A DNA stretch of 64,000 nt. Source: Labia minor. Its lineage: Eukaryota > Arthropoda > Insecta > Dermaptera > Spongiphoridae. Below the pieces are notes generated by a model, which ran no database searches, was not told where the DNA came from, and worked only from the letters and a program-made list of their open reading frames with translations. How positions within the stretch are numbered: the first letter of the stretch is position 1; each line of letters starts with the position of its first letter. Location: NCBI GenBank assembly GCA_963082975.1, contig OY720348.1:56695564-56759563 (forward strand). The letters are read 5' to 3'. This document shows positions 14,567 through 61,826 of the stretch, in pieces. The position numbers and the translations under genes are program-made.

Positions 14567-14571
14567 ACATA
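14567..14571. repeat. 5' target-site duplication of the BEL element (ACATA)
   Basis: Matches ACATA at 20493-20497, just outside the 3' LTR. Five bp is the usual size for this superfamily. Confidence 0.85.
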
Positions 14572-15346
14572 TGTTTAAGCCAAATCTAAATTTCACTTAA
14601 TAATTTTCCATTAATATTATTCTACGTTTTTTGAATTATGAGACTAAGGTAACTGTTGAGGGTTCGGGTTGGTTCGGATAGTCTCGCTATGATTCGTATA
14701 TGCTGAGAGGGAGAAAAATTAGCTTCGCGTGGATGGGCTGGGAGACATATTGGATAACTGGATAACATGCTTGAGGTTGCCGGCAAGACAACAGCTGAAA
14801 GATGACACGTTTCTCTACACAACGAATTGTATTCTCATATTCTTTCTTCATTATTTACATTTCAACATGTATATCAGGATTGTGTAATCGTAATGTATTA
14901 TAATATAACATATTCCAAATCGAAAAGGTATTTATTTAATATATATATACGAATGATTCGCTCAACGCTGGCTCAACTTACTGTGACGCCATTACGAACG
15001 ATCATTCAATGCATTTATATCAGGCCTATTGGCTATTATCATATAACAGACCTCTTGATCATTACTATATACAATTAACATTTATAACAAACACACTCCT
15101 TTTCGTATGCATATAGCTTTCATCAACTGAATAATCTTCAGGGAGTTTTTTCCTTAGTTATACTAAGGTTTTCTCCCTTCTTGGGGCTAATAAATTCTTC
15201 AATATACACCCCAAATTGAGTATAATTATTTAATAATACCTATTCATATTTAATCCTTCTCCAAACATTTATTTTACAGTAAACAAAAAAAGGGTTTAAA
15301 ACTGAAGCACGAGAATTAGGCTTAAGGACTAGTTTTCGACGAAACA
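14572..15346 (+). repeat. 5' LTR
   Basis: 775 bp, starting TG and ending CA. Two embedded open frames (14622-14822 antisense and 14827-15078 sense) recur identically in the 3' LTR and only reflect identity. A stem ctgaataatcttcagggag and a ttccttagttatactaagg palindrome at 15150-15170 lie in the second half. Confidence 0.93.
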
Positions 15347-15348
15347 AA

Positions 15349-15365
15349 TGGTGCCTCCTGTGAGG
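15349..15365 (+). promoter_or_regulatory. candidate primer-binding site
   Basis: tggtgcctcctgtgagg begins three bases after the LTR end. TGG is the complement of the tRNA CCA end. The tRNA identity is not assigned. Confidence 0.6.
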
Positions 15366-16036
15366 TTATGGACTGATAATATCTACATACAACGAGATTA
15401 AAAATTGAAAAACATTTCTAAATCAGTGCCTGATCTCCATCAACATCGTGAAACGCAATCAAATTAAGATAAGTTACAAATTTAACTTATTAACAACGCT
15501 GTATCCTTTAATTCTATTATTTAATTATTATTATTAAAATTTAATTTTCAATCAATTATCAATTTTAAATTTTCAATTCGATCAATCAATTCTTATAAAG
15601 ATTAATAACGCTATATTCTTTAATTCCATCATTTACTTATTATTATCAAAATTATAAATTTAAAATTTGTCAATTCCATCAATTAATTCTTATAAAGATT
15701 AACGACATTAAACATATCAATACATTATTAATTGGTATTTTTGTTATTATCATTAATTAATATTTCTGCTATTGATTGCTAATTATTGTTTTTCAAATAC
15801 TCTTTTCTAATAATGGTATTACTAGAGATATTCAAACATTTCAAAATTATACAAGAAATACTATAGTAACTATAGTTATTAAAACATTTCAGAATTAAAC
15901 AAGAAATAGCAATTTTGCAATTTGCAAAGTTAACAAAACCTTCTTTATAGAACTCTCAAGGGTACAATATGTAAATATATGTATTGTATCAATTTTATTC
16001 ATATACATTATACTAATTTATCCATATAATTAGTAT

Positions 16037-16572
16037 CTACGAATCGAACGATATGTTCATTAAATCCATTCGGTTATGGTGTATCTATATCCTCATGGCT
16101 ATTCTACGAATCGAACGATATGTTCATTAAATCCATTTGGTTATAGTGTATCTATATCCTCATGGCTATTCTACGAATCGAACGATATGTTCATTAAATC
16201 CATTTGGTTATGGTATATCTGTATCCTCATGGCTGTTCTACGAATCGAACGATATGTTCATTAAATCCATTTGGTTATGGTATATCTGTATCCTCATGGC
16301 TGTTCTACGAATCGAACGATATGTTCATTAAATCCATTTGGTTATAGTATATCTGTATCCTCATGGCTATTCTACGAATCGAACGATATGTTCATTAAAT
16401 CCATTCGGTTATAGTATATCTATATCCTCATGGCTATTCTACGAATCGAACGATATGTTCATTAAATCCATTCGGTTATAGTATATCTATATCCTCATGG
16501 CTATTCTACGAATCGAACGATATGTTCATTAAATCCATTCGGTTATGGTACATCTATCTCCTCATGGTCTCC
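16037..16572 (+). repeat. eight-unit 67-bp tandem array inside the BEL element
   Basis: Units start ctacgaatcgaacgatat at 16037, 16104, 16171, 16238, 16305, 16372, 16439 and 16506. They differ by a few bases (catttggtt/cattcggtt, ggctatt/ggctgtt). Since 67 is not a multiple of 3, the open frames here simply cycle through three units and are not a protein. Confidence 0.95.
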
Positions 16573-17077
16573 ATACATATCATACTAATTAATTTTTATA
16601 ATTAGTAAACTTTTCATGAGATACTTTTTACAATACATATCACTAATTTATTCATATAATTAGTATCTTCCTTTTTCCGATATTAAACTATATACATTAC
16701 ACAAATTCATTCATTGAACCTACTTGACTATTCATTCATTAGGCCCACTTGGCTATCATATACTCTTTAAGTGTCCAACGTTCAACTCTCTCGATTGATC
16801 AACGCATATGATATGATGTTTATAAAATCCTCAATACACTACCCATCATTTAACAATATCTCATAATGATACGTCTAGATGATTAGTCACACACAATCTC
16901 ACGCGCGATTTATCTTAAACATCCTAGATTCCAATTAATGATGAGTGCCATTATAATGATGCAGGATTCATTAGGTGATTTCATAACAGCTCAATCAGTG
17001 CACGATACCTGTGCGACTGCTAATTTCATTGTTGAATCGTTAACACATAAATTTTAAATTCGCAAACAAACACGTTA

Positions 17078-17300
17078 TATAATGGAATTTTGTGGATTGG
17101 ACCGCGTATTGATGCTTGTTGTTGTGGGTTTGTTCGGGGGATGCGGGCCTGTGCGCGGCGCCTCGGCTGCCGCCTCCGCGGTCGCCTGGTGGCGATCAAG
17201 GGGGTGACGGTCGGGGCGCTGTGTGTGTGTTTGTGTTCTTTGGATGGATTCGCGATGGCGGGTGTCGGTGTGTGGTTTGGTTTGCGGGGTTCCATTGTAA
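17078..17300 (+). mobile_element. palindromic MITE-type insert saturated with A-to-G changes
   Basis: A GC-rich island with arms of about 80-100 bp. The ends are unedited (aatggaattttgt at 17081; ttccattgt near 17298). Compared with the related sequence at 46911-47043, the left arm differs almost only by A to G (for example attcaaaaaat against gttcgggggat), about 25 of 27 changes by eye. The right arm, aligned as its reverse complement, also differs by sense-strand A to G (about 25 changes). Only about 13 A remain between 17091 and 17297. Several overlapping open frames here, on both strands, are composition artefacts. Confidence 0.85.
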
Positions 17301-17644
17301 ATAAAAACAACCACCAAAGCGTTGATAATTAAACATGTTCTATTCCTGTAGGAGTAATTAATGGAATGCAAACTTTCTCAAAAAATCTAATACAAATAAA
17401 GTGCAAATCCATGAATAATAAATTCTAAAGATCACTATCCTTCTTGACAGTTAATCAAATTGCTGATCTGAGTACCAGTCAAGTTTTTCCACGTGACATG
17501 TTAACGCTCCTACGAAACATTTAATTAACTGATCCACAATTCCATTTACCACGTTCAAAAGATGTTCTTATTGGCTCAGGAACAAGTTTCTCTCTTCTAT
17601 CCATTGGACAGATCAATCTTTCAACACATGATTGTTATTGAATT

Positions 17645-18500
17645 TTGCAAAAAACACAACCGGTGTCCTGTCAACTGACTGATCTGTCAAATCAATTAAC
17701 TCAATTTTTGGAAATTGAAAACACAAATCAAAGGAGCTCTAGATCTTTAGATGATTTCATATGTGAAACTTATTATCAAATTCACACTACTCGCAATCCA
17801 TATGGTCAATATATTGTTAAATTGTCATTCCATATAAATAATCTAGAAATCAAGCTTATCGACGATTTTTATCTTTACAGAGGAGATTGAATGCTAACTC
17901 ACAATTAAAAACTGAATATTGCAAGGTAATGCAAGAAAATATTGATATGGGCCATATGATATATGTTCCCGATGTCCCAGAGCCAGGATATTACATGCCT
18001 CATCATCTAGTAATCAAAACCTCCAGCACTACTACTAAGGTGCGGGTCGTGTTCGATTGCTTCTGCCAAATAAGAGAAAGGTATCTCATTGAATGAGGTT
18101 CTATTGATTGGTCCTACTATCCAAGATGGTCCATTCACTATGCTGCTACGTTTTCGATCTTACATCTATGTTATGACTTCAGACATCGCTCAGATGTATT
18201 GACAAATCCAACCATCGTAAGTTTCAAAGGATTCTATATTATCATAATAATGTTATCAATATCTTTGATCTTCAGAGAATTATCTTTGGAGTCTCTGCTC
18301 CATACTTCCTTGCTATTCGAACTGTTAATCAGTTTGTTGATGACCAAGCTCATAACTCTTCTAGAACTTTCGAAATTCTAAAAAAAGGGATCTTTATGTA
18401 GACGATCTCTTAACTGGAACCAATTCTCTGGCTGAAATTCTTCGACTGCGTGTTGATATTAATCAATTGACAAACAACGTGTTTTAATAGTTGGATGGCA
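17645..18500 (+). pseudogene. BEL/Pao reverse transcriptase remnant
   Basis: Reverse transcriptase copies the retrotransposon RNA into DNA in cytoplasmic particles. The frame fragments follow the BEL/Pao order. FLEIEN (about 17708) is the start of the RT region; HTTRNPYGQYIVKL (17785-17825) is the usual RDxxGRYxVxLP block; YYMPHHLVIK (17990-18020) and TTTKVRVVFD (18028-18056) are the PHHAVIK/LRVVFD blocks. The catalytic YVDD is preserved at 18395-18406, followed by LLTGTNSLAEI. At least three stops or frameshifts interrupt it (17888, about 18094, 18196) and the block between LRVVFD and YVDD is badly eroded. Not translatable as one protein. It was identified by motif recognition, not a search. 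Confidence 0.88.
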
Positions 18501-19620
18501 TTTAAAACATGCCGCACTCTCATTCACGAAAAGAAAAAAAACCTCTATCTCTCTCACCTTCTCATCGTCACGTGACCGATTTGATTATCCGTGATATACA
18601 CAAATACACATCTCATGCCGGAATCCAAACTTCTCTATCCAATCTTCGTCAGAGACTTTGGACTCTGAATGGTAAGGGTCCAGTTCGACGAATCATTCGA
18701 TGATGCATTCGTCTTCGATACAGACCAGTGTTATTGCATGGAAAGATGGTAGATTTACCTTCTGCTCGGGTCACCGAGTCAGCTGCATTTTCTCATGTGG
18801 CTGTCGATTACTTCGGTCTCCTGTACATCAAGGAATGAAAATTCCGTAATCGAACAGAGTTTTTTATATGGATGTCTCTTCATCTGCATGGCTACAAAGG
18901 CCGTACATCTCTAGATAGTGAGTGATCTAACAGCTAACGGTTTTTAGGATGCATTTGGACGGTTCATTGGTTGACGAGGTGTCCCATCTCACGTGTATCC
19001 TGACAATGGTACAAATTTCATAGGTGCAAACAATCAATTACGTGAGCTTTATATATTGTTCTCATCTAAATCCCATCAAGGCATTGTCAACGATTTTGCC
19101 TTGGAAAAAAGCTATTACTTGGCGATTTAATCCACCCCCTATCTTCTCATTTAGTGACATTTGGGAAGCTGAAATGAAATCCTTTAAACATCATTTCAAA
19201 ACGAGTGGTGAAAGATCAATTATTAACTTTTGAAAAACTTAACTAACTTGCTATACATATAGAATCTATATTCAATTCTCACCTTTTGTCTTCATTATCT
19301 AACGATCCTAATGATCTTATTGTATTAACTCTTGCTCACATTCTAATCTCTCACGATACTTCCCGAAAATAATATCTCTGATGTTCCAGATTATCGTCTC
19401 AACATATGACAATTCATTACTAAGGCCACACAGTAACTCTGGAAACGATGGTATTTAGAATATCTACACGAACTTCAAACTCGTCAAAAATGGCAATGTT
19501 CTCAAGGTAAACTCGAGATCAATCAGATCAACGTCGACGTCCTTCCTGCAGATGATGGAATATCTCGAGTCGCAAGGGATTTTCAAACAAAAACATCACT
19601 TTGCTATGTTTTTTAACAAT
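18501..19620 (+). pseudogene. BEL/Pao integrase remnant
   Basis: Integrase would insert the cDNA into chromosomes. Visible in order are HAGIQTSLSNLRQRLW (18617-18660), the zinc-binding-region motif before the core; LPSARVTESAAFSHVAVDYF (18750-18810), holding the first catalytic Asp; YPDNGTNF (19000-19023), holding the second; IWEAEMKSFKHH (19160-19195), the region of the catalytic Glu; NDPNDLIVLT (19305-19332); and a C-terminal DDGISRVARDF (19552-19585). Stops interrupt after VRRIIR (18701), within the core (about 18836, 18920) and after 19233. The order and spacing match BEL/Pao Pol, but the gene is dead. Confidence 0.88.
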
Positions 19621-19705
19621 TAATTCATCAATACTTGTTGTTAACATTCTAAACCATTGTCCATTCTATTGTAATCACTATACATATATTGCTCATTGAT
19701 TCGCA

Positions 19706-19716
19706 ACGGGGGGAGT
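19706..19716 (+). promoter_or_regulatory. polypurine tract
   Basis: acggggggagt directly before the 3' LTR, the expected position for plus-strand DNA priming. Confidence 0.75.
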
Positions 19717-19717
19717 G

Positions 19718-20492
19718 TGTTTAAGCCAAATCTAAATTTCACTTAATAATTTTCCATTAATATTATTCTACGTTTTTTGAATTATGAGACTAAGGTAACT
19801 GTTGAGGGTTCGGGTTGGTTCGGATAGTCTCGCTATGATTCGTATATGCTGAGAGGGAGAAAAATTAGCTTCGCGTGGATGGGCTGGGAGACATATTGGA
19901 TAACTGGATAACATGCTTGAGGTTGCCGGCAAGACAACAGCTGAAAGATGACACGTTTCTCTACACAACGAATTGTATTCTCATATTCTTTCTTCATTAT
20001 TTACATTTCAACATGTATATCAGGATTGTGTAATCGTAATGTATTATAATATAACATATTCCAAATCGAAAAGGTATTTATTTAATATATATATACGAAT
20101 GATTCGCTCAACGCTGGCTCAACTTACTGTGACGCCATTACGAACGATCATTCAATGCATTTATATCAGGCCTATTGGCTATTATCATATAACAGACCTC
20201 TTGATCATTACTATATACAATTAACATTTATAACAAACACACTCCTTTTCGTATGCATATAGCTTTCATCAACTGAATAATCTTCAGGGAGTTTTTTCCT
20301 TAGTTATACTAAGGTTTTCTCCCTTCTTGGGGCTAATAAATTCTTCAATATACACCCCAAATTGAGTATAATTATTTAATAATACCTATTCATATTTAAT
20401 CCTTCTCCAAACATTTATTTTACAGTAAACAAAAAAAGGGTTTAAAACTGAAGCACGAGAATTAGGCTTAAGGACTAGTTTTCGACGAAACA
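19718..20492 (+). repeat. 3' LTR
   Basis: Same length as the 5' LTR, and every stretch compared by eye is identical. Followed by ACATA at 20493-20497. Confidence 0.93.
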
Positions 20493-20497
20493 ACATA

Positions 20498-24401: not shown

Positions 24402-24709
24402 TATATACATATGTATATATATTTGTATTTTTGAAATATTATACCGCTCGAAGGATTTTTTGAAATTCACAAGATAGATAATTTTTATAAAGAAAAATCG
24501 ATCTGTATTGGTTTCAGCTTCGGGAAAAATCATCTTTATAAGTTTTTTCTTCATTTGAAATAGGAAATTTAAATGACTTCAACATACTACATCAGACAGT
24601 GCTCCCATGAATACAAAATATTATAAATATAAATAAAATCGAATTACGAAATATATATTATTAATATGTTCATTTAAATTATTTGAACGGCGGCTCGGTG
24701 AACCAGGTA
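24402..24709 (+). repeat. family B, copy 3, in tandem with copy 2
   Basis: Starts within one or two bases of the end of copy 2 and in the same orientation, but belongs to the subtype ending gaacggcggctcggtgaacc-aggta. It lacks the outermost 5' bases. Confidence 0.82.
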
Positions 24710-38898: not shown

Positions 38899-40651
38899 CT
38901 ATTTATTAATGTCTCTTGTCAAGTCCTGTGGTTTGAGTCTTTTGAGTCGTCTCAGTTGTCCTTGTGTGTCTAATAGTTGTCGGGCTTTGGGATTAGGGTG
39001 TTTAAGGAGTCTGTCTTTGTAGCGAAGGCTGTAATTTTTAATTTCCATTTCGATTGTATCTATTCCGAGGTCCCTATGAATCAGTCTGTTAGGGACATAC
39101 CAAGGAGCACCGACTATCAGTCTAAGTGTTTTGTTTTGAAACCGCTGAATCAGGTCTCTATTGGATTTGCTAGCGGTCCCCCACATCTGAATGCCATAGG
39201 TCCAAATGGGTTTAAGGATCATTTTGTAAATTAGAAGTTTATTGTCTATCGTCAGTTGAGATTTTTGTCGGAGCAGCCAGTATAATTTGTTAAGTTTAAG
39301 TCTCAGTTGTTTTTTGATTTGATGTGCATCTCCCACGTTAGGCGTCTGTCAAGGTGCATACCGAGGTACTTTACAGAACTTTTAGTCGGAATGGGTTTGT
39401 CTAAATTTACGCCGGGGCAGGTCTGTCTATTCAAAGTAAAAGTCAAGTGTGCAGATTTGTCTTCGTTAACTGCTATCCTCCATTTCTCAAGCCAAGGCCT
39501 TAATTGGTTTAGACTTTCCTGGAGCATAGCAGAAGCCACGATTGAGTCTTTATGTGAAGCGACAAAGCGGTATCATCAGCAAAGGTCGCTGTGGTTATGT
39601 TCGGGTTAGCCGGCAAGTCAGCTGTAAAAAGTAAATACAAAACAGGCCCCAAAACACTACCATGTGGTACTTCAGATCTAACAGGATAAACCTCACTAAT
39701 GGCGTCATTCATCTTAACTCTAAAGCTTCTGCCATCGAGGTAAGAACGAATCAGCCTGTAATAAATTATTGGGAGTATGTCATAAAGCTTCCGAAGTAGA
39801 CCCTCATGCCAAACTTTATCGAAAGCCTGAGATATATCAAGAAAAACGGCTGAGCAGTATCGTTTGTTTTCAAGATCTTTGTGAATTACATCAACAATTC
39901 GATGTACTTGCTCAATAGTGCCGTGCTTCTCTCTAAAGCCGAATTGGTGGATTGGGATTAAATCTATTAGAAAGGGACGGAGTCTAGAAAGAAAGACCCT
40001 CTCGAACAATTTAGAGATGGCAGAGAATAGATTAATAGGTCTATACGAGTTTGACTCCTCAGGAGGTTTCCCAGGCTTGATGATCATTTTCACCAAGGGT
40101 GTTTTCCACTGTGTTGGGAACTGGGACTCTAAAGATGGAGTTAAATATGAGGGTCAGGAAGAGGATTGCCTTATCAGACAAGTTCCTCAACATTTTACCT
40201 GAGATTAGATCATTTCCCGGGGCCTTTTTATTTTTGATTGTCTGTCGTATAATGCCTTTTAATTCAGACGTCTGTATTAGTTTGGGGAATGGCATTGAGT
40301 AATTGTGTGTTTTGAATTGGTGTGTTGGCTGAGAAAGTTATTGTCAGGTGGAGTGTTCTTTGGTGGGAGAGGAGTAAAAACGATAGAAAGTTGACTAGCG
40401 AATGTATTCGCCTTATCGATGTCACTCTTCGCCCATTCATTATTTTGTCTACGTAGTGGGGGGATTCTTTCAGTTGGTCTTTTAAGTTTCTTTGTCGCTT
40501 TCCAGAGAGAGTAGTCAGTTGAATGAGTAGGGGTAAGGTCTCTCAGATACTTTTGAATGCTTTGATTCCTTTCAGTTCTGAGTAGATTCCCAATTTGTTT
40601 AGATAAATTATTAGTTGTCGTTTTAAGCTGTGGGGATCTGTTTGTCTGCAA
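38899..40651 (-). pseudogene. jockey-like LINE ORF2, reverse transcriptase and C-terminal part
   Basis: ORF2 would reverse-transcribe its own RNA at a nicked chromosomal target. Read from 40651 downwards: a linker; KNKKAPGNDLISG (40215-40177); SYRPINLFSAISKLFERV (40050-39997); HQFGFREKHGTIEQV (39950-39906); AVFLDISQAFDKVWH (39855-39811); VPHGSVLGPVLYLLFTADLP (39664-39605); the catalytic FADD at about 39585-39574; KYLGMHLDRRLTWEMHI (39372-39322); LKPIWTYGIQMWG (39213-39175); and a stop at 38899. At least three frameshifts are needed (near 40280, 40070-40095, 39520 and 39310), so it is dead, yet all RT blocks are visible. Each break may be a single-base event, which suggests moderate age. Confidence 0.9.
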
Positions 40652-40758
40652 TTGTCGTCTGAGCCTATTTTTTTTAGTTATTAAGTCTTTAATGTGTTTT
40701 GGTGTGTCTTGGTTTAAGTCTTTAGGAGTAATTTTGGTGTTGACAGACGTGCTGCCAT

Positions 40759-41586
40759 TTATATAGTATTGGTTATATGGTGGATTGCTTTGTCAATGTC
40801 AAGGCTATATGTCAGAGGTAAGTTTAGGTCGAGGCTTTGGTTTAGTATTTCTGCATATTTATTCCAGTTAGTTTTATGATTAGTCAAGTAGTGAGAGTTT
40901 GATTTGAGAGATGCACAGGTGTTTAATGTAAGTTGTACTGGGGAGTGGTCAGAGGAAAGATCAAGGCAGGATTCAATTAAGCATCCCTCCCCGTTAACCC
41001 CTCTTGCCACAAAAAAGTCAATTAAGTCTGGGATTTTGTTTCTGTCAGAGGGCCAATACGTAGGTCTTCCAGTTGAGATAGTAATTAGGTTGTATTTTTT
41101 AATAGTCTTAGCGAGATTTCGGCCTCTAGGAGTATTAAGTCGAGATCCCCAGTCATTATAGTCACCTCCAGCAAGGAACCTCGACCCCAGGGTCTGGAAA
41201 AAATCCCAAAAATCCCCAGACGAAATTCGATGCTTGGGAGGGCAGTAAGTAGAAGCAATTGTAATAGGTTCGTTTTTGTCTTGAATTGTCAAAGAGGTTG
41301 CTTGTAGATAGTCTTTGTAAAAAGGAGGGTTTTCGTAATGAGATATTTTGTCTTTAATTATAATGGCTGTTCCTCCGTGTGATGTACCGTCTGGGTGATT
41401 GGTAAAGTATAGGTTGTAATCGGGAATTTTTAAGTAGCTTCGAGGGTTGAAATGAGTCTCAGCAATTAGCATAATGTCAATGTCTTTGTCTATCAGGTAG
41501 TGTTTGAGTTCACAAGAATGCCTCAATAGGCCGTTAGCATTCCATAATGAGATTTTAAGCAATCGATCCATTGGGAATTCTCGCAA
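40759..41586 (-). CDS. jockey-like LINE ORF2, endonuclease domain
   Basis: A 275-codon open frame. The apurinic/apyrimidinic-type endonuclease nicks chromosomal DNA to prime reverse transcription. Landmarks are SLWNANGL (residues about 13-20, catalytic Asn), LIAETH (about 40-45, catalytic Glu), GGTAIIIKD (71-79), GGDYNDWGS (140-148, catalytic Asp/Asn), and SSDHSPVQLTL (211-221, the terminal SDH motif). Key residues are intact, so this domain could have been functional when inserted. It ends at a TAA (ITNTI*), after which the ORF2 linker resumes in other frames. The start MREFPMDRLLK overlaps the end of ORF1 by about 30 bases, usual for this clade. It is part of the same insertion as the RT remnant. 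Confidence 0.9.
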   Translation of the reverse strand: MREFPMDRLLKISLWNANGLLRHSCELKHYLIDKDIDIMLIAETHFNPRSYLKIPDYNLYFTNHPDGTSHGGTAIIIKDKISHYENPPFYKDYLQATSLTIQDKNEPITIASTYCPPKHRISSGDFWDFFQTLGSRFLAGGDYNDWGSRLNTPRGRNLAKTIKKYNLITISTGRPTYWPSDRNKIPDLIDFFVARGVNGEGCLIESCLDLSSDHSPVQLTLNTCASLKSNSHYLTNHKTNWNKYAEILNQSLDLNLPLTYSLDIDKAIHHITNTI

Positions 41587-42151
41587 TGAGGGTGGTCAGA
41601 AGGTTAAGTATAGTGTCCATGCGATCCATGAGTTTAACCAACATGCTTTCCAGAATAGGTGTTTGTGTTTGTGTCGGGAGAGATTTGGTGTTGTCGTTAT
41701 TATTAGATTTTAGTATGTCAGAGTAGCGAATGTTTGGTTGTGACATGGAGTTAAGTGTTTGTCGTTTGTCATGTGTTGAACTAGTTGGTAGTGGAGGGGG
41801 TACAGTCTGTAATTGTTTAGGTCTAAAAGAGGGATATTTGTTTTGTCGTAATTCGACATAATGTTTGCAGCCCTTAAAGTTGGCTGGATGGTCACCGCCA
41901 CAGAGTACGCATTGGGGTGGAGAAGTCTTGTCTTTTTGGCAGTCAAATGTAAGATGGTCTTTAGTGCATTTAACGCAGCGTGGTCTCAGCTTACAGTATG
42001 CCCTGGTATGCCCATAATGCTGACATCTCGTACATTGAGGGATATCTCTACGAGCACGCGGTGCCTCAATTACAACCCTGCTATGACAGAGGTATTGAGT
42101 AGTATAGATGTCTTTATTGTTGGGTGCTGGTTTTAGGTCTAAGAAGAACAC
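41555..42151 (-). CDS. LINE ORF1 C-terminal half, three zinc knuckles
   Basis: ORF1 proteins of jockey-like LINEs bind their RNA and form particles that reach the nucleus. This half begins at FFLDLKPAPNNKDIYTTQYL, the end of the PRE_C2HC domain, then CTRCQHYGHTRAYC (Cx2Cx4Hx4C), CVKCTKDHLTFDC (Cx2Cx3Hx4C) and CVLCGGDHPANFKGC (Cx2Cx3Hx5C). A Pro/Ser/Thr-rich stretch and a helical end, LVKLMDRMDTILNLLTTLIA, follow. Fully open, 198 codons. The ATG at 42151 is not a true start: the N-terminal half of the same protein lies inverted at 42562-43302, and the sequence reads open upstream to the inversion junction near 42155-42160. It overlaps the start of ORF2. Confidence 0.9.
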   Translation of the reverse strand: MFFLDLKPAPNNKDIYTTQYLCHSRVVIEAPRARRDIPQCTRCQHYGHTRAYCKLRPRCVKCTKDHLTFDCQKDKTSPPQCVLCGGDHPANFKGCKHYVELRQNKYPSFRPKQLQTVPPPLPTSSTHDKRQTLNSMSQPNIRYSDILKSNNNDNTKSLPTQTQTPILESMLVKLMDRMDTILNLLTTLIARIPNGSIA

Positions 42152-42159
42152 AATAGTTA

Positions 42160-42561
42160 ACTAACCATCAAGCAGTTAACAACTCTCTAAGTGATCTTTA
42201 GTGCCGATCTCATTACTAGGCCATTTCGACCTAAATACCTCATTATACATCAATTACATATTTTAATATATATTATATATAAAATCTTATATTGAATTTT
42301 CAACTTTTTCAATTGTATGTATAAAATTTTATTTAAATATCACCTTTAAATTTTAAATATCTACTAATATATAAATATACATATATTTTATACCCTCTTT
42401 CCAAGGCCTCTGTTTTCCCAGTCAGCCACACCGTTTAGGCCGCGAGTGTGTGAAGTCTACCCCTCCCCTTCCCACCCCAGTTTCATTCTCTCTCATCCAT
42501 GCCCCAAGTACTAAATACCATTTTTAAAAAAAATAAATAAATAATAATAATAACGCTAGAA
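42160..42561 (+). other. LINE 5' UTR within the inverted segment
   Basis: Lies between the inversion junction and the ORF1 start. It has an A/T-rich part (42240-42400) and a pyrimidine-rich part (42400-42510, ctacccctccccttcccacc). Jockey-type LINEs carry internal promoters in this region; here that is inference. Confidence 0.5.
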
Positions 42562-45206: not shown

Positions 45207-46718
45207 TTTTTTTTTCCTTTATTTTATTTACAATCAGCTCAGTTTTGGAGCTATAAGTAAATTTGATAATAATTTATTTACATACACTCTCACACTCAGA
45301 CACTCATACATTCATTCATTCATTCTCACATTCACACATCACTTGAAGAGAAAGTCGGCCATCGACGACGTCCCTATTTTAGTTTCACCCTCCAGTTTTT
45401 TGATATAGCACGCTCCTCAATATCGAGAACGTGGGTCTTCTTAAGTCTCCTGAAGACTTCACTGTTGTCTAGGAGAGCAATCGCTGATACATTTGGATGA
45501 TTTTCTAGTTTTTTAATATGTTTGATGAATGACTGATGGATCACTTCTCTGACTGGTGGGACGAGAAGGTCATTGTGCAAGCTTGCATTTGAGACGTACC
45601 AGGGTGCATTTGCTATGCATCTAAGTATTTTGGATTGCACTCTTTGTATTTTATTTATATTGGACTCGCTGGCACAGTTCCCCAGATTTGACATGAGTAT
45701 TGCCAGATTGGCTTAAGCATTGACTTGTAAAGCAGTACTTTTGTTTTAAGTGTAAGTTGTGAGTTTTTTCCCAACAGCCAATACATTTTTTTATATTTGA
45801 TGTTTAATTCATTCTTCTTTTTGTCTATGTGAATTTTCCAGTTTATTTTCGAATCAAGATACAGTCCAAGATACTTCACAGAGTTACTTTGGGGAATGAT
45901 TTGGGAATTTAGGTAAACGGATGGACATATGATTTTTCTATTTGTGAAAGTGATGTGATTCGATTTGGTCTCGTTTACATGAATCCTCCACCTATGAAAC
46001 CAATTTTGGATGGTGTCAAGTTTTTCTTGAAGTTTATTCGAAGCAGTACCTGGATCTGAGCTGGTTACTAGTATGGAGGTATCATCAGCATAGGTAGCAA
46101 TGAATGAGTCTTCACTTGTTGGTATGTCCGCAGTATACAGAGAATAAAGAAATGGTCCAAGAATGCTGCCTTGGGGAACTCCTGCACGTATTGGATGATA
46201 TTGAGATAACTCATTTTCTACCCGAACTTGGAACCAACGATCTTGAAGGTATGATTTAAATATCCAATAGTAATGGTCAGGAAATATTTTTTTTATTTTA
46301 TATAAAAGTCCTTAATGCCAAACTTTGTCAAATGCTTGTTTTACATCAAGAAACACGCCGGAGCATATCTTGTTTTCTTCCAGGGTTGTTTGGATAACGT
46401 TAACAATTCGATGAATTTGTTGAGAAGTAGAGTGTTGGCGTCTAAATCCATATTGATGATCGGGTAATATTTCGTCAATTTCAACATCAGTCTTTAGTCG
46501 CGTTAAAATAAGTTTTTCAAAGATTTTTGATGTTTAGGGAAGAAGACTAATTGGTCGATATGAGGAGACTTCCGACTCTTGTTTTCCTGATTTAAGAATC
46601 ATGATAATATGAGCAATTTTCCATTGAATTGGGAAATTGCGAGTTCTTAAAATTGCATTGAATATTTGAGTGAGTAGAAGTATTCCTTTTTTCGGGAGTT
46701 TTTTAAAGACCTCAACAG
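45207..46718 (-). mobile_element. 5'-truncated jockey-like LINE
   Basis: 1512 bp between two TCAATAATACA copies. Poly(T) at 45207-45215 marks the 3' end. It begins inside the reverse transcriptase; ORF1 and the endonuclease were never copied. Confidence 0.88.
45374..46718 (-). pseudogene. jockey-like LINE reverse transcriptase, truncated ORF2
   Basis: The minus strand, from the truncation point: VEVFKKLPKKGILLLTQIFN (46716-46657), SYRPISLLP (46560-46534), then after a stop a KIFEKL/HQYGFRRQHSTSQQ block (about 46520-46435), GVFLDVKQAFDKVWH (46360-46316), GVPQGSILGPFLYSLYTADI (about 46182-46123), catalytic YADD (about 46090-46079), KYLGLYLDSKINWKIHI (45876-45826), LKPIWQYSCQIWGT (45720-45680) and a final stop at 45374. 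Only a few stops or frame changes interrupt it (46534, about 46315, about 45680). It is related to, but clearly distinct from, the LINE at 38666-43303; the 3' half of the two proteins aligns block by block. Confidence 0.88.
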
Positions 46719-46910: not shown

Positions 46911-47043
46911 TATAATGGAATTTTGTAAATTAAACCACATATTGATATTTGTTATTGTAAATTTATTCAAAAAATACAAACATATACACATGCTACTTCT
47001 GCAATCGTTATCAAGCGACTGCACTGTTCGAGTGTCTAGTGAC
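46911..47043 (+). mobile_element. unedited relative of the palindromic insert at 17078
   Basis: 133 bp flanked by aatacaatatc on both sides (46900-46910, 47044-47054). Its first 90 bp (tataatggaattttgtaaat...) align with both arms of the element at 17078-17300 and with the ends of 56044-56186. The right arm is missing here. The A-rich form restores complementarity of the arms, so it represents the ancestral state. Confidence 0.75.
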
Positions 47044-47260
47044 AATACAATATCATTTAAAAACAAGGCGGGAGTCAAATTTCAATATGGATGACATAAT
47101 GACGTCACATAATTTTGCTCTTTTAATTTAAGAAAATAATAATAAATTTTATTTTTCCTGAGGCTGAAACCAATACAGATCGATTTTTTCTTATATGGAT
47201 TACCTATGGTGTGAATTTCCAAAAAATACTTGAACTGTTTAATATCTCAAAAATATACAA

Positions 47261-47294
<34 letters not shown>

Positions 47295-47335
47295 ATATAT
47301 ATATATAATTTTTGCTAGTATAATAAGACAAGATA

Positions 47336-55494: not shown

Positions 55495-55797
55495 ATAAAT
55501 TCGTAATTTGATTACAAAATATTATTAAAATAAATATTTATATGATTTTATTTTATATTTTGTATTTATATAAGGTCTGACGTAGTTGTTGGTGTCATTT
55601 AAATTTACTATTTTAAATTAAAAAATATACTAATAAAGATGATTTTTCCTGAGGCTGAAACCAATACAGATCGATTTTTCTTTATAAAAATTATCTATGG
55701 TGTGGGTGTGAATTTCAAAAAAATCCTTAGAGGGGTTTAATATATCAAAAATATAAATATATATATATATACAATTTGCTGATATAATAAGATAAGA
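55495..55797 (-). repeat. family B copy, 5' half
   Basis: taatttgattacaaaatatt ... aaaccaatacagatcgattt ... gctgatataataagataaga; no hairpin end. Confidence 0.78.
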
Positions 55798-55955: not shown

Positions 55956-56043
55956 ATTAAAAGTAAATCAAAAATAAATATCAAGTAAAAGTAAATGACA
56001 ATTTGTAGATATTAGATTGTTAAAGCTTGGGGGTTGTTTTTAT

Positions 56044-56186
56044 TTATAAGGGAATTTTTTGTAAATAAAACCACATATTGATATTTTATTTTTAATTTAT
56101 TCAAAAACACAAAAAATACACAACGTTTCGATTCCAGAAGGAGAAAAATATCAATATATAGTTTTATTTACAAAATTCCCTTATAA
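56044..56186. mobile_element. palindromic MITE, intact small member
   Basis: 143 bp with inverted ends of about 42 bp (ttataagggaatttttt-gtaaataaaac / gttttatttacaaaattccc-ttataa) around acacaacgtttcgattccag. The arms match those of 46911-47043 and, apart from A-to-G changes, those of 17078-17300. Confidence 0.8.
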
Positions 56187-56349
56187 ATTTCAATTTATAT
56201 TATATTATATAGTGTTATAGAGTGGTGTTTACCAGTTACAGAACTTCTTGTAAATTATTTACCTGGAATGAACAAATTGGTTTCTTGATTTTAAATTACC
56301 ACAATTGTTCTATCCGATAATTAATAAAAATAGATACAATGGCATGTCT

Positions 56350-60997: not shown

Positions 60998-61826
60998 TAT
61001 CTGGAACATGGAGCTATCGCTCGACTCTTTAAAAAATATTGATATACAATTCTTTAATTATTTATTACAATTATTAAATGTTACATCATTGCATCAATCT
61101 GATTAAAATGAATGGAACTTGGGGTCCTCAATAATAATAAATAATACTAATAATTATTAAATAATATTTTAGTGAAAAATTATTAAAAATTATAAAACTA
61201 TCTCTAAAAATTAATTAATAAAAGAACAATGAATAAATAAATATAAATTAGTAATTTAATAAAAAATAAACACAAAAATAAATTTTAAAAAATATAAAAT
61301 TAACTAATAAAAATTTATAAGAATTAACAAAAAATTAAAAGACAAAACATTAAAAAATTTCAAATATTTGAGAGAAAAAAATAACAAAACTTATATTTAA
61401 TGTTTTCAAGACAAATACCAAGCCTTATTTGTTTTTTTTATTTTTGAAAGAGATTAATAAATATATTTTATTAAAATAAATATTTTTAATTTTATTTAAT
61501 AAATTTCAAAATATTTTAAATATAAAAAAAATATTAATACAATATCATTTAAAATCATTAAATGGCAAGAGGCACATTTGCAATATGGATGATGTCATTT
61601 GTGACGTAATAAAAATTTAAATTAAGAAAAGACTAACAAAGATGGTTTTTCCTGAGGCTGAAACCAATACAGATCGATTAGTCTTTATAAATATTAACTA
61701 TAGTGTGAATTTCAAAAAAATCTTTCGAGCTGTTAATTAATAAATTAATTCAAAAATATATAAATATATATACACATATATATACAAATATATATACATA
61801 CAATTTTTTTTAGTATAATAAGATTA
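60998..61826 (-). repeat. family B, longest uninterrupted copy
   Basis: tctggaacatggagctatcg through tttttttagtataataagat. It serves as the reference for the interrupted copies at 33229-33968 and 45067-47345. Confidence 0.85.

Follow-up and report, generated by a model that had tools for sequence, protein, structure and literature searches.

How has a hairpin inside a retrotransposon come to carry G, in both of its arms and on the same strand, at positions where its relatives elsewhere in the genome carry A? The hairpin in question is located in the window (the whole 64,000-nucleotide stretch of Labia minor DNA analysed here; 28% GC), which lies on contig C10 of a 604-Mb assembly of 71 contigs. 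ADAR enzymes edit long double-stranded RNA, converting A to I, and reverse transcriptase reads I as G; as a rule such edits are observed at the RNA level alone and are lost with the transcript. We propose, as the probable explanation for this locus, that a foldback sequence carried in the RNA of a BEL/Pao-type retrotransposon was edited by ADAR and reverse-transcribed, and that the resulting copy founded a lineage which was subsequently amplified.

The host of the hairpin is a complete LTR element at 14572-20492 (sense strand +), the sequence of which was compared with the window by BLAST. Its 5′ LTR (14572-15346; +; 775 bp; TG...CA) is identical to its 3′ LTR (19718-20492; +), and the element is bordered on both sides by a 5-bp target duplication, ACATA (14567-14571 and 20493-20497; +). 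A purine-rich tract, GGGGGGAGTG (19708-19717; +), which we take to be a candidate polypurine tract, is positioned directly before the 3′ LTR. Comparison of seven pieces of the element with Pfam identified, both on the + strand, an Integrase_H2C2 piece (the integrase zinc-binding domain; 18506-18700; E = 1.9e-4, below the curated cut-off) and a DUF5641 piece (19437-19613; E = 3.9e-8, above the curated cut-off); an EzrA match of a third piece fell below cut-off and was taken as chance, and four pieces had no match. Pfam named no reverse transcriptase family for two pieces which, judged by eye, presumably resemble reverse transcriptase. DUF5641 has a typical place in BEL/Pao polyproteins, and both the TG...CA LTRs with a short target duplication and the presence of integrase and DUF5641 pieces on the sense strand are as expected for this class; our description of the element as BEL/Pao-type rests on DUF5641 and the reverse transcriptase-like pieces recognised by eye. 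The sense strand is assigned as + because the H2C2 and DUF5641 pieces lie on that strand and the purine-rich tract precedes the 3′ LTR. The identity of the two LTRs indicates a young insertion, yet this copy has only broken coding frames, with no stop-to-stop frame of at least 120 aa inside 14572-20492, which points to movement in trans. A 67-bp tandem array (16036-16567; pieces 94-97% identical) is also present inside the element, upstream of the hairpin, and in another carrier of the hairpin (L042) 66-aa frames are repeated in a similar way ahead of the hairpin.

The edited hairpin (17078-17299; +) comprises two stem arms (17078-17186 and 17191-17299) connected by a loop (17187-17190), and is followed by a single-stranded tail of the foldback insert (17300-17333; +) in which A is kept. 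The last bases of the tail overlap the right target duplication of the insert, AAACATGTTCT (11 bp; 17331-17341; +); the left duplication reads AAACACGTTAT (17068-17078; +), with most other copies ending CACGTTCT. When 17060-17320 is folded as RNA, a single hairpin spanning 17078-17299 is obtained (-142.6 kcal/mol; z = -11.55; 0/200 shuffles as good), the 104 stem pairs of which are 51 G:U, 37 G:C and 16 A:U. This shuffle test, together with the strand asymmetry described below, rules out chance or base composition as the source of the hairpin. At the DNA level a repeat finder reported no inverted repeat at 17078-17299; the arms fall below its reporting level because the changes they carry are on the same strand.

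The nearest unedited sequence in the window, identified by sequence comparison, is one arm plus the start of a foldback interior at 46911-47024 (+). Relative to it, the left arm of the hairpin has 33 differences (28 A-to-G, 4 T-to-C and 1 A-to-C) and the right arm 41 (34 A-to-G, 4 T-to-C, 2 G-to-A and 1 C-to-A), all read on the + strand; the claim in the original prediction that both arms, although reverse complements of each other, changed from A to G on the BEL sense strand is thus borne out. Its count of about 25 A-to-G in 27 differences per arm is also close to what is obtained against the majority sequence of the foldback family, where A-to-G accounts for 21/23 differences in the outer left arm (17078-17149) and 23/25 in the outer right arm (17228-17299). 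Across the 49 BEL copies described below, at least 90% have G at 67 of the 84 family A positions versus C at 5 of the 83 family T positions (p = 3.9e-24), the other changes that reach this level of sharing being one G-to-A and one C-to-A, and each of the 49 has 78-83% of its hairpin A changed.

The changes are confined to the part of the insert that is predicted to be double-stranded as RNA. In the tail of the same insert (17300-17333; 34 aligned bases) none of 19 A has a shared change (p = 3.5e-11 versus the stem), although a single tail A reads G in 15/30 copies. The sequence flanking the hairpin in the window copy remains A-rich, and when the flanks of a copy with an empty site (L072) are compared with those of the window copy, the 189 differences over 1,273 bases include 27 A-to-G, 23 G-to-A, 28 T-to-C and 54 C-to-T; three further empty-site copies (L071, L075 and L083) give a similar spectrum, and no A-to-G excess is seen in the retrotransposon flanks outside the hairpin in these comparisons. 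The A-to-G changes therefore stop at the ends of the palindrome, next to A-rich neighbours with an ordinary flank spectrum, as was originally described. Dense A-to-G change on one strand, with no balancing T-to-C and restricted to double-stranded RNA, is the pattern expected of ADAR; of the G-to-A change on the plus strand expected of APOBEC there is one shared instance, versus 67 A-to-G.

In addition to the 67 shared-edited positions, four A read G in roughly every second copy and 13 are never G. Seven of the eight A in the terminal 10 bp of the stem fall outside the set edited in every copy (p = 3e-5), although an A near the right stem end (17297) is edited despite this end effect, and spared A of the interior tend to precede T (8/10, versus 20/66 for edited A; p = 0.004). 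In the excerpt of PMC2790459 used here, ADAR is reported to spare 3 nt from a 5′ end and 8 nt from a 3′ end, with a 5′ neighbour preference of A = U > C > G. The end effect at this locus is broadly as in that excerpt, but with a spared zone on the 5′ strand that is wider than the limits it gives. The effect of a 5′ G in the hairpin is weak: when pre-edit neighbours are considered in the outer arms, 1/44 edited versus 2/15 unedited A follow G (p = 0.16), and over the whole hairpin 5/8 A following G are shared-edited versus 62/76 A following other bases. A 5′ G bias, which does not reach significance once pre-edit neighbours are used, was accordingly rejected as proof of ADAR, and the suggestion that most surviving A follow a G has to be replaced by sparing at the stem ends and before T.

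The parent of the insert appears to be a uniform family of foldbacks. A genome search with the relative at 46911 gave at least 51 matches (best 40 of 238 candidates scored), and the 40 loci sampled consist of L001-L030, the first of which is the window's own relative, plus ten more. Over 6,506 aligned bases (local alignments, with gaps left uncounted) their 59 arms depart from the majority at 35 positions, 2 of which are A-to-G; because the sample was drawn by similarity to an unedited query, it could miss edited free copies. A diverged unedited copy in the window (56041-56201; +) likewise has 0 A-to-G among 10 differences over 119 aligned bases. Both arms are present in 18/40 loci. A typical copy has one short arm and another arm with a tail of ~34 nt, and the insert in the BEL element has this same layout with its tail on the right; loci among L002-L035 form a highly uniform family with one tailed arm. 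Adjoining the unedited arm in the window is a repeat (47044-47328) that recurs several times in the window with 75-80% identity, for instance at 61536-61823, 24402-24581 and 55594-55771.

The target duplications of the free foldbacks are variable, with words of 11-18 bp (score at least 9) in 14/17 loci tested, which beat their own 15 shuffles at 13/17 loci; at the remaining 3/17 the duplication is either shorter or unconvincing. A MITE would be expected to have a fixed short duplication made by a DNA transposase, and this is not what the foldbacks show, the duplication within the BEL element being 11 bp. The variability rules out a classical MITE as the class of the insert, as it had first been labelled, and suggests that the family may be retroposed rather than moved by cut-and-paste, with Penelope-like and LINE-driven elements among the candidate classes.

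Copies of the host element were retrieved with the sequence beside the hairpin (query 17305-18400; best 40 of 77 BEL candidates scored; 93-100% identity), and a G-rich hairpin occupies the same position in 30/30 of the first loci. Together with 9 more from a query across the junction, the 40 give 49 places, the window's own included, and the edited hairpin is present in 49/49 copies examined, two of them with a 63-bp internal deletion. No unedited or partly edited BEL copy at this site was found among the 49 (from the best 40/77 and 40/74 candidates), so the copies examined do not include the unedited hairpins that had been looked for at the same position, and a state common to all of them rules out a recent change confined to the window copy. 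Seven of the 49 carriers (L087-L092 and L094) are located within 63 kb in one orientation (C6:7490573-7553835), a cluster that is possibly the product of nesting or local duplication.

A query made of the two flanks joined together matches 14 sister loci across an empty junction (best 40 of 74 candidates scored). Thirteen of these retain the 11-bp target word AAACATGTTCT intact where the insert would lie, the site being shortened in the fourteenth (L071), and the hairpin carriers have the word on both sides of the insert, with small changes. In a midpoint-rooted tree of 30 of the 49 carriers and the 14 empty-site loci, all 30 carriers form one clade (support 0.919; stem branch 0.050) that contains no empty-site copies and has L071 as its nearest empty-site relative. 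The state shared by 49/49 copies, the empty sites and the single clade together imply that an edited copy founded the lineage; by parsimony, the shared changes would fall either on the stem branch of the carriers or on the foldback before its entry. The original idea of an ADAR-edited hairpin fixed within a BEL element thus survives in its spectrum and confinement, although the event is placed in the founder of the lineage and not in this copy. A long reading frame spans the empty site in 2/3 sister copies looked at, and 3/3 hairpin carriers looked at have short frames only (at most 144 aa); judging from these six copies, the lineage looks non-autonomous and probably relied on related elements to move it in trans.

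The direction of change follows from three observations: the free loci are A-form, as are all 59 of their arms, the 14 sister sites are empty, and the G-form arms are not complementary as DNA. A is therefore ancestral, as first proposed, and the following course of events would account for the locus. A foldback inserted into a BEL/Pao-type element, making the 11-bp target duplication. Sense transcription would then give an RNA in which the insert forms a hairpin with arms of ~109 bases, and a deaminase of the ADAR family would turn ~80% of the hairpin A to I, as is suggested by the spectrum, the strand and the confinement to duplex; on the same grounds, reverse transcription of the edited RNA would write G into a new DNA copy. 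That copy would have founded the lineage now present at at least 49 places in the assembly, with 67 A-to-G changes in at least 90% of copies, and the lineage, in which the three carriers looked at have broken frames, would have been copied in trans by related elements. A few further A-to-G changes occurred in part of the lineage, and may reflect renewed editing.

We favour editing of the BEL RNA over editing of the foldback's own RNA prior to insertion. If the foldback's own hairpin RNA had been the substrate, and had entered the BEL element by retroposition after being edited, the unedited single-stranded tail would be explained equally well, and the variable target duplications of the family, in suggesting retroposition, also suggest that a hairpin stage of its own RNA existed. 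However, the match between the edited strand and the BEL sense strand would then be a coincidence with even odds, and the 59 free arms, which would also have passed through RNA, are unedited, albeit in a search that favoured unedited copies. The extra A-to-G in some BEL copies, at 4/17 residual A, additionally points to BEL RNA, and we regard prior editing of the foldback as rather unlikely.

A strand-biased misincorporation by reverse transcriptase on a structured template, with no deaminase involved, is consistent with changes that are confined to the structured part of the insert, but is considered very improbable. The shared changes are of one type at 67/84 A, accompanied by 5 T-to-C, one G-to-A and one C-to-A, and we know of no enzyme error pattern that matches this; moreover, the later copying of the hairpin has left it only moderately more variable among copies than its flanks (variable columns: 34/222, versus 50/461 and 60/606).

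Changes that postdate the founder bear on the number of editing rounds and on a possible role of selection. Later A-to-G is seen at 4/17 residual A of the hairpin versus 25/505 A/G flank columns (p = 0.011), in a comparison where columns are not independent and the direction of the flank changes is not known; this excess fits more than one round of editing. T-to-C is seen at 19 hairpin sites in part of the 30 copies, versus 45/562 flank columns variable for C/T (p = 5.6e-5), and many of these later changes turn G:U into G:C. Editing of the sense RNA by ADAR leaves the T-to-C changes unexplained, and mismatch repair of hairpin DNA, quasipalindrome correction and selection are candidate causes. 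Full-length copies have either 10-16 T-to-C (L041-L056 and L096-L104) or 6-7 (L057-L070 and L086-L095), and the two deleted copies (L049 and L051) have 6 each.

Could selection, or repair of hairpin DNA, also have made the arms G-rich over a long time? The T-to-C still accumulating at those 19 sites, many of them converting G:U to G:C, and the maintenance of pairing over the 30 copies (2,956/3,058 pair cells still pair; 102 do not) would be in keeping with such a process. Selection for pairing, nonetheless, would not weaken A:U to G:U on one strand only, and at least 90% of copies share the 67 A-to-G, whereas 19/24 T-to-C sites differ between copies; selection on stem pairing is thus thought an unlikely cause of the A-to-G, and gradual enrichment by either route is scarcely credible.

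The reverse direction, with an ancestral G form from which the A form arose by APOBEC-type G-to-A change through minus-strand DNA or by C-to-T decay, is just as hard to credit, since, although C-to-T change also turns G:C pairs into G:U and APOBEC-type editing of retrotransposons is reported in the part of PMC2873906 cited here, independent foldback loci are A-form and 0/59 of their arms descend from a G form, a target duplication borders the insert and 14 sister loci are empty, and non-complementary G arms would need ~67 directed changes to parent perfect foldbacks. C-to-T decay in particular is ruled out by free loci that are A-form and by sister sites that are empty. Although the original prediction had counted G-rich arms shared by many copies, along with ordinary C/T changes, as evidence against editing, and both are indeed found, the free foldbacks are A-form and the sister sites empty.

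The closest precedent for editing of the BEL RNA, by analogy, is provided by avian retroviruses with edited inverted repeats. A-to-G hyperediting is reported for the U3 region of Rous-associated virus 1 (Felder 1994) and for avian leukosis virus (Hajjar and Linial 1995), both as cited in the excerpts of PMC12925331 and PMC8586724; the excerpt of the former gives nearly 50% of A changed in an avian retrovirus inverted repeat, and that of the latter names ADAR-linked hyperediting for both viruses. As described in these excerpts, the viral cases resemble the present one in that A-to-G change on one strand of the U3 or inverted repeat was reverse-transcribed to DNA and attributed to ADAR. They differ in being exogenous, with nearly 50% of A changed, whilst here a germline BEL/Pao-type lineage has 80% of A changed in 49/49 copies examined. 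Since ~80% exceeds the viral figure, several rounds of editing may be needed.

Other systems, so far as the excerpts cited describe them, share fewer features. A-to-G hypermutation attributed to ADAR is reported from an insect for Drosophila sigma virus (PMC2790459), which is an RNA virus and has no DNA stage. The APOBEC editing of retrotransposons in PMC2873906 is likewise a deaminase footprint in DNA copies of retroelements, but it is G-to-A, arises by deamination of cytidine in cDNA and needs no hairpin. Palindromic transcripts, for example in Xenopus (PMC2873906), share the hairpin RNA substrate and the dense A-to-G, but there the edits are in RNA, over an unedited genome, and are not inherited. 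Among the titles and abstract openings of the literature consulted, with subscription papers mostly outside, no report of an ADAR footprint in a germline family of retrotransposons stood out; it therefore seems that, whereas the mechanism is known in exogenous retroviruses, a germline retrotransposon lineage founded by an edited copy is new.

At this locus, reverse transcription seems to have turned RNA editing into germline DNA sequence, which has since spread to many places in the genome. Unlike the avian retroviruses, the locus comes with internal controls, namely the unedited relatives of the parent foldback family, the unedited tail of the insert, the empty sister sites and flanks with an ordinary spectrum of change. 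These make it a clean case in which to test how frequently edits in RNA turn into inherited mutations, and whether hairpin-bearing retroelements are rescued or restrained by editing. It is conceivable, if rather doubtful, that editing is what let the lineage live, the RNA of a perfect A:U-rich foldback otherwise feeding double-stranded RNA sensing and silencing by the host. If so, heavy editing would have yielded a G:U-rich hairpin with few A that can be copied and is a poorer target for editing or slicing, and ADAR would be a heritable, lineage-founding source of mutation that tames the double-stranded RNA of an element, beyond its role as an antiviral mutator.

Scanning the window for Rfam families and for tRNAs yielded no matches. 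Frames of non-LTR retrotransposons are present on its - strand at 38899-42160 and 45655-46311, and resemble reverse transcriptase and endonuclease by eye.
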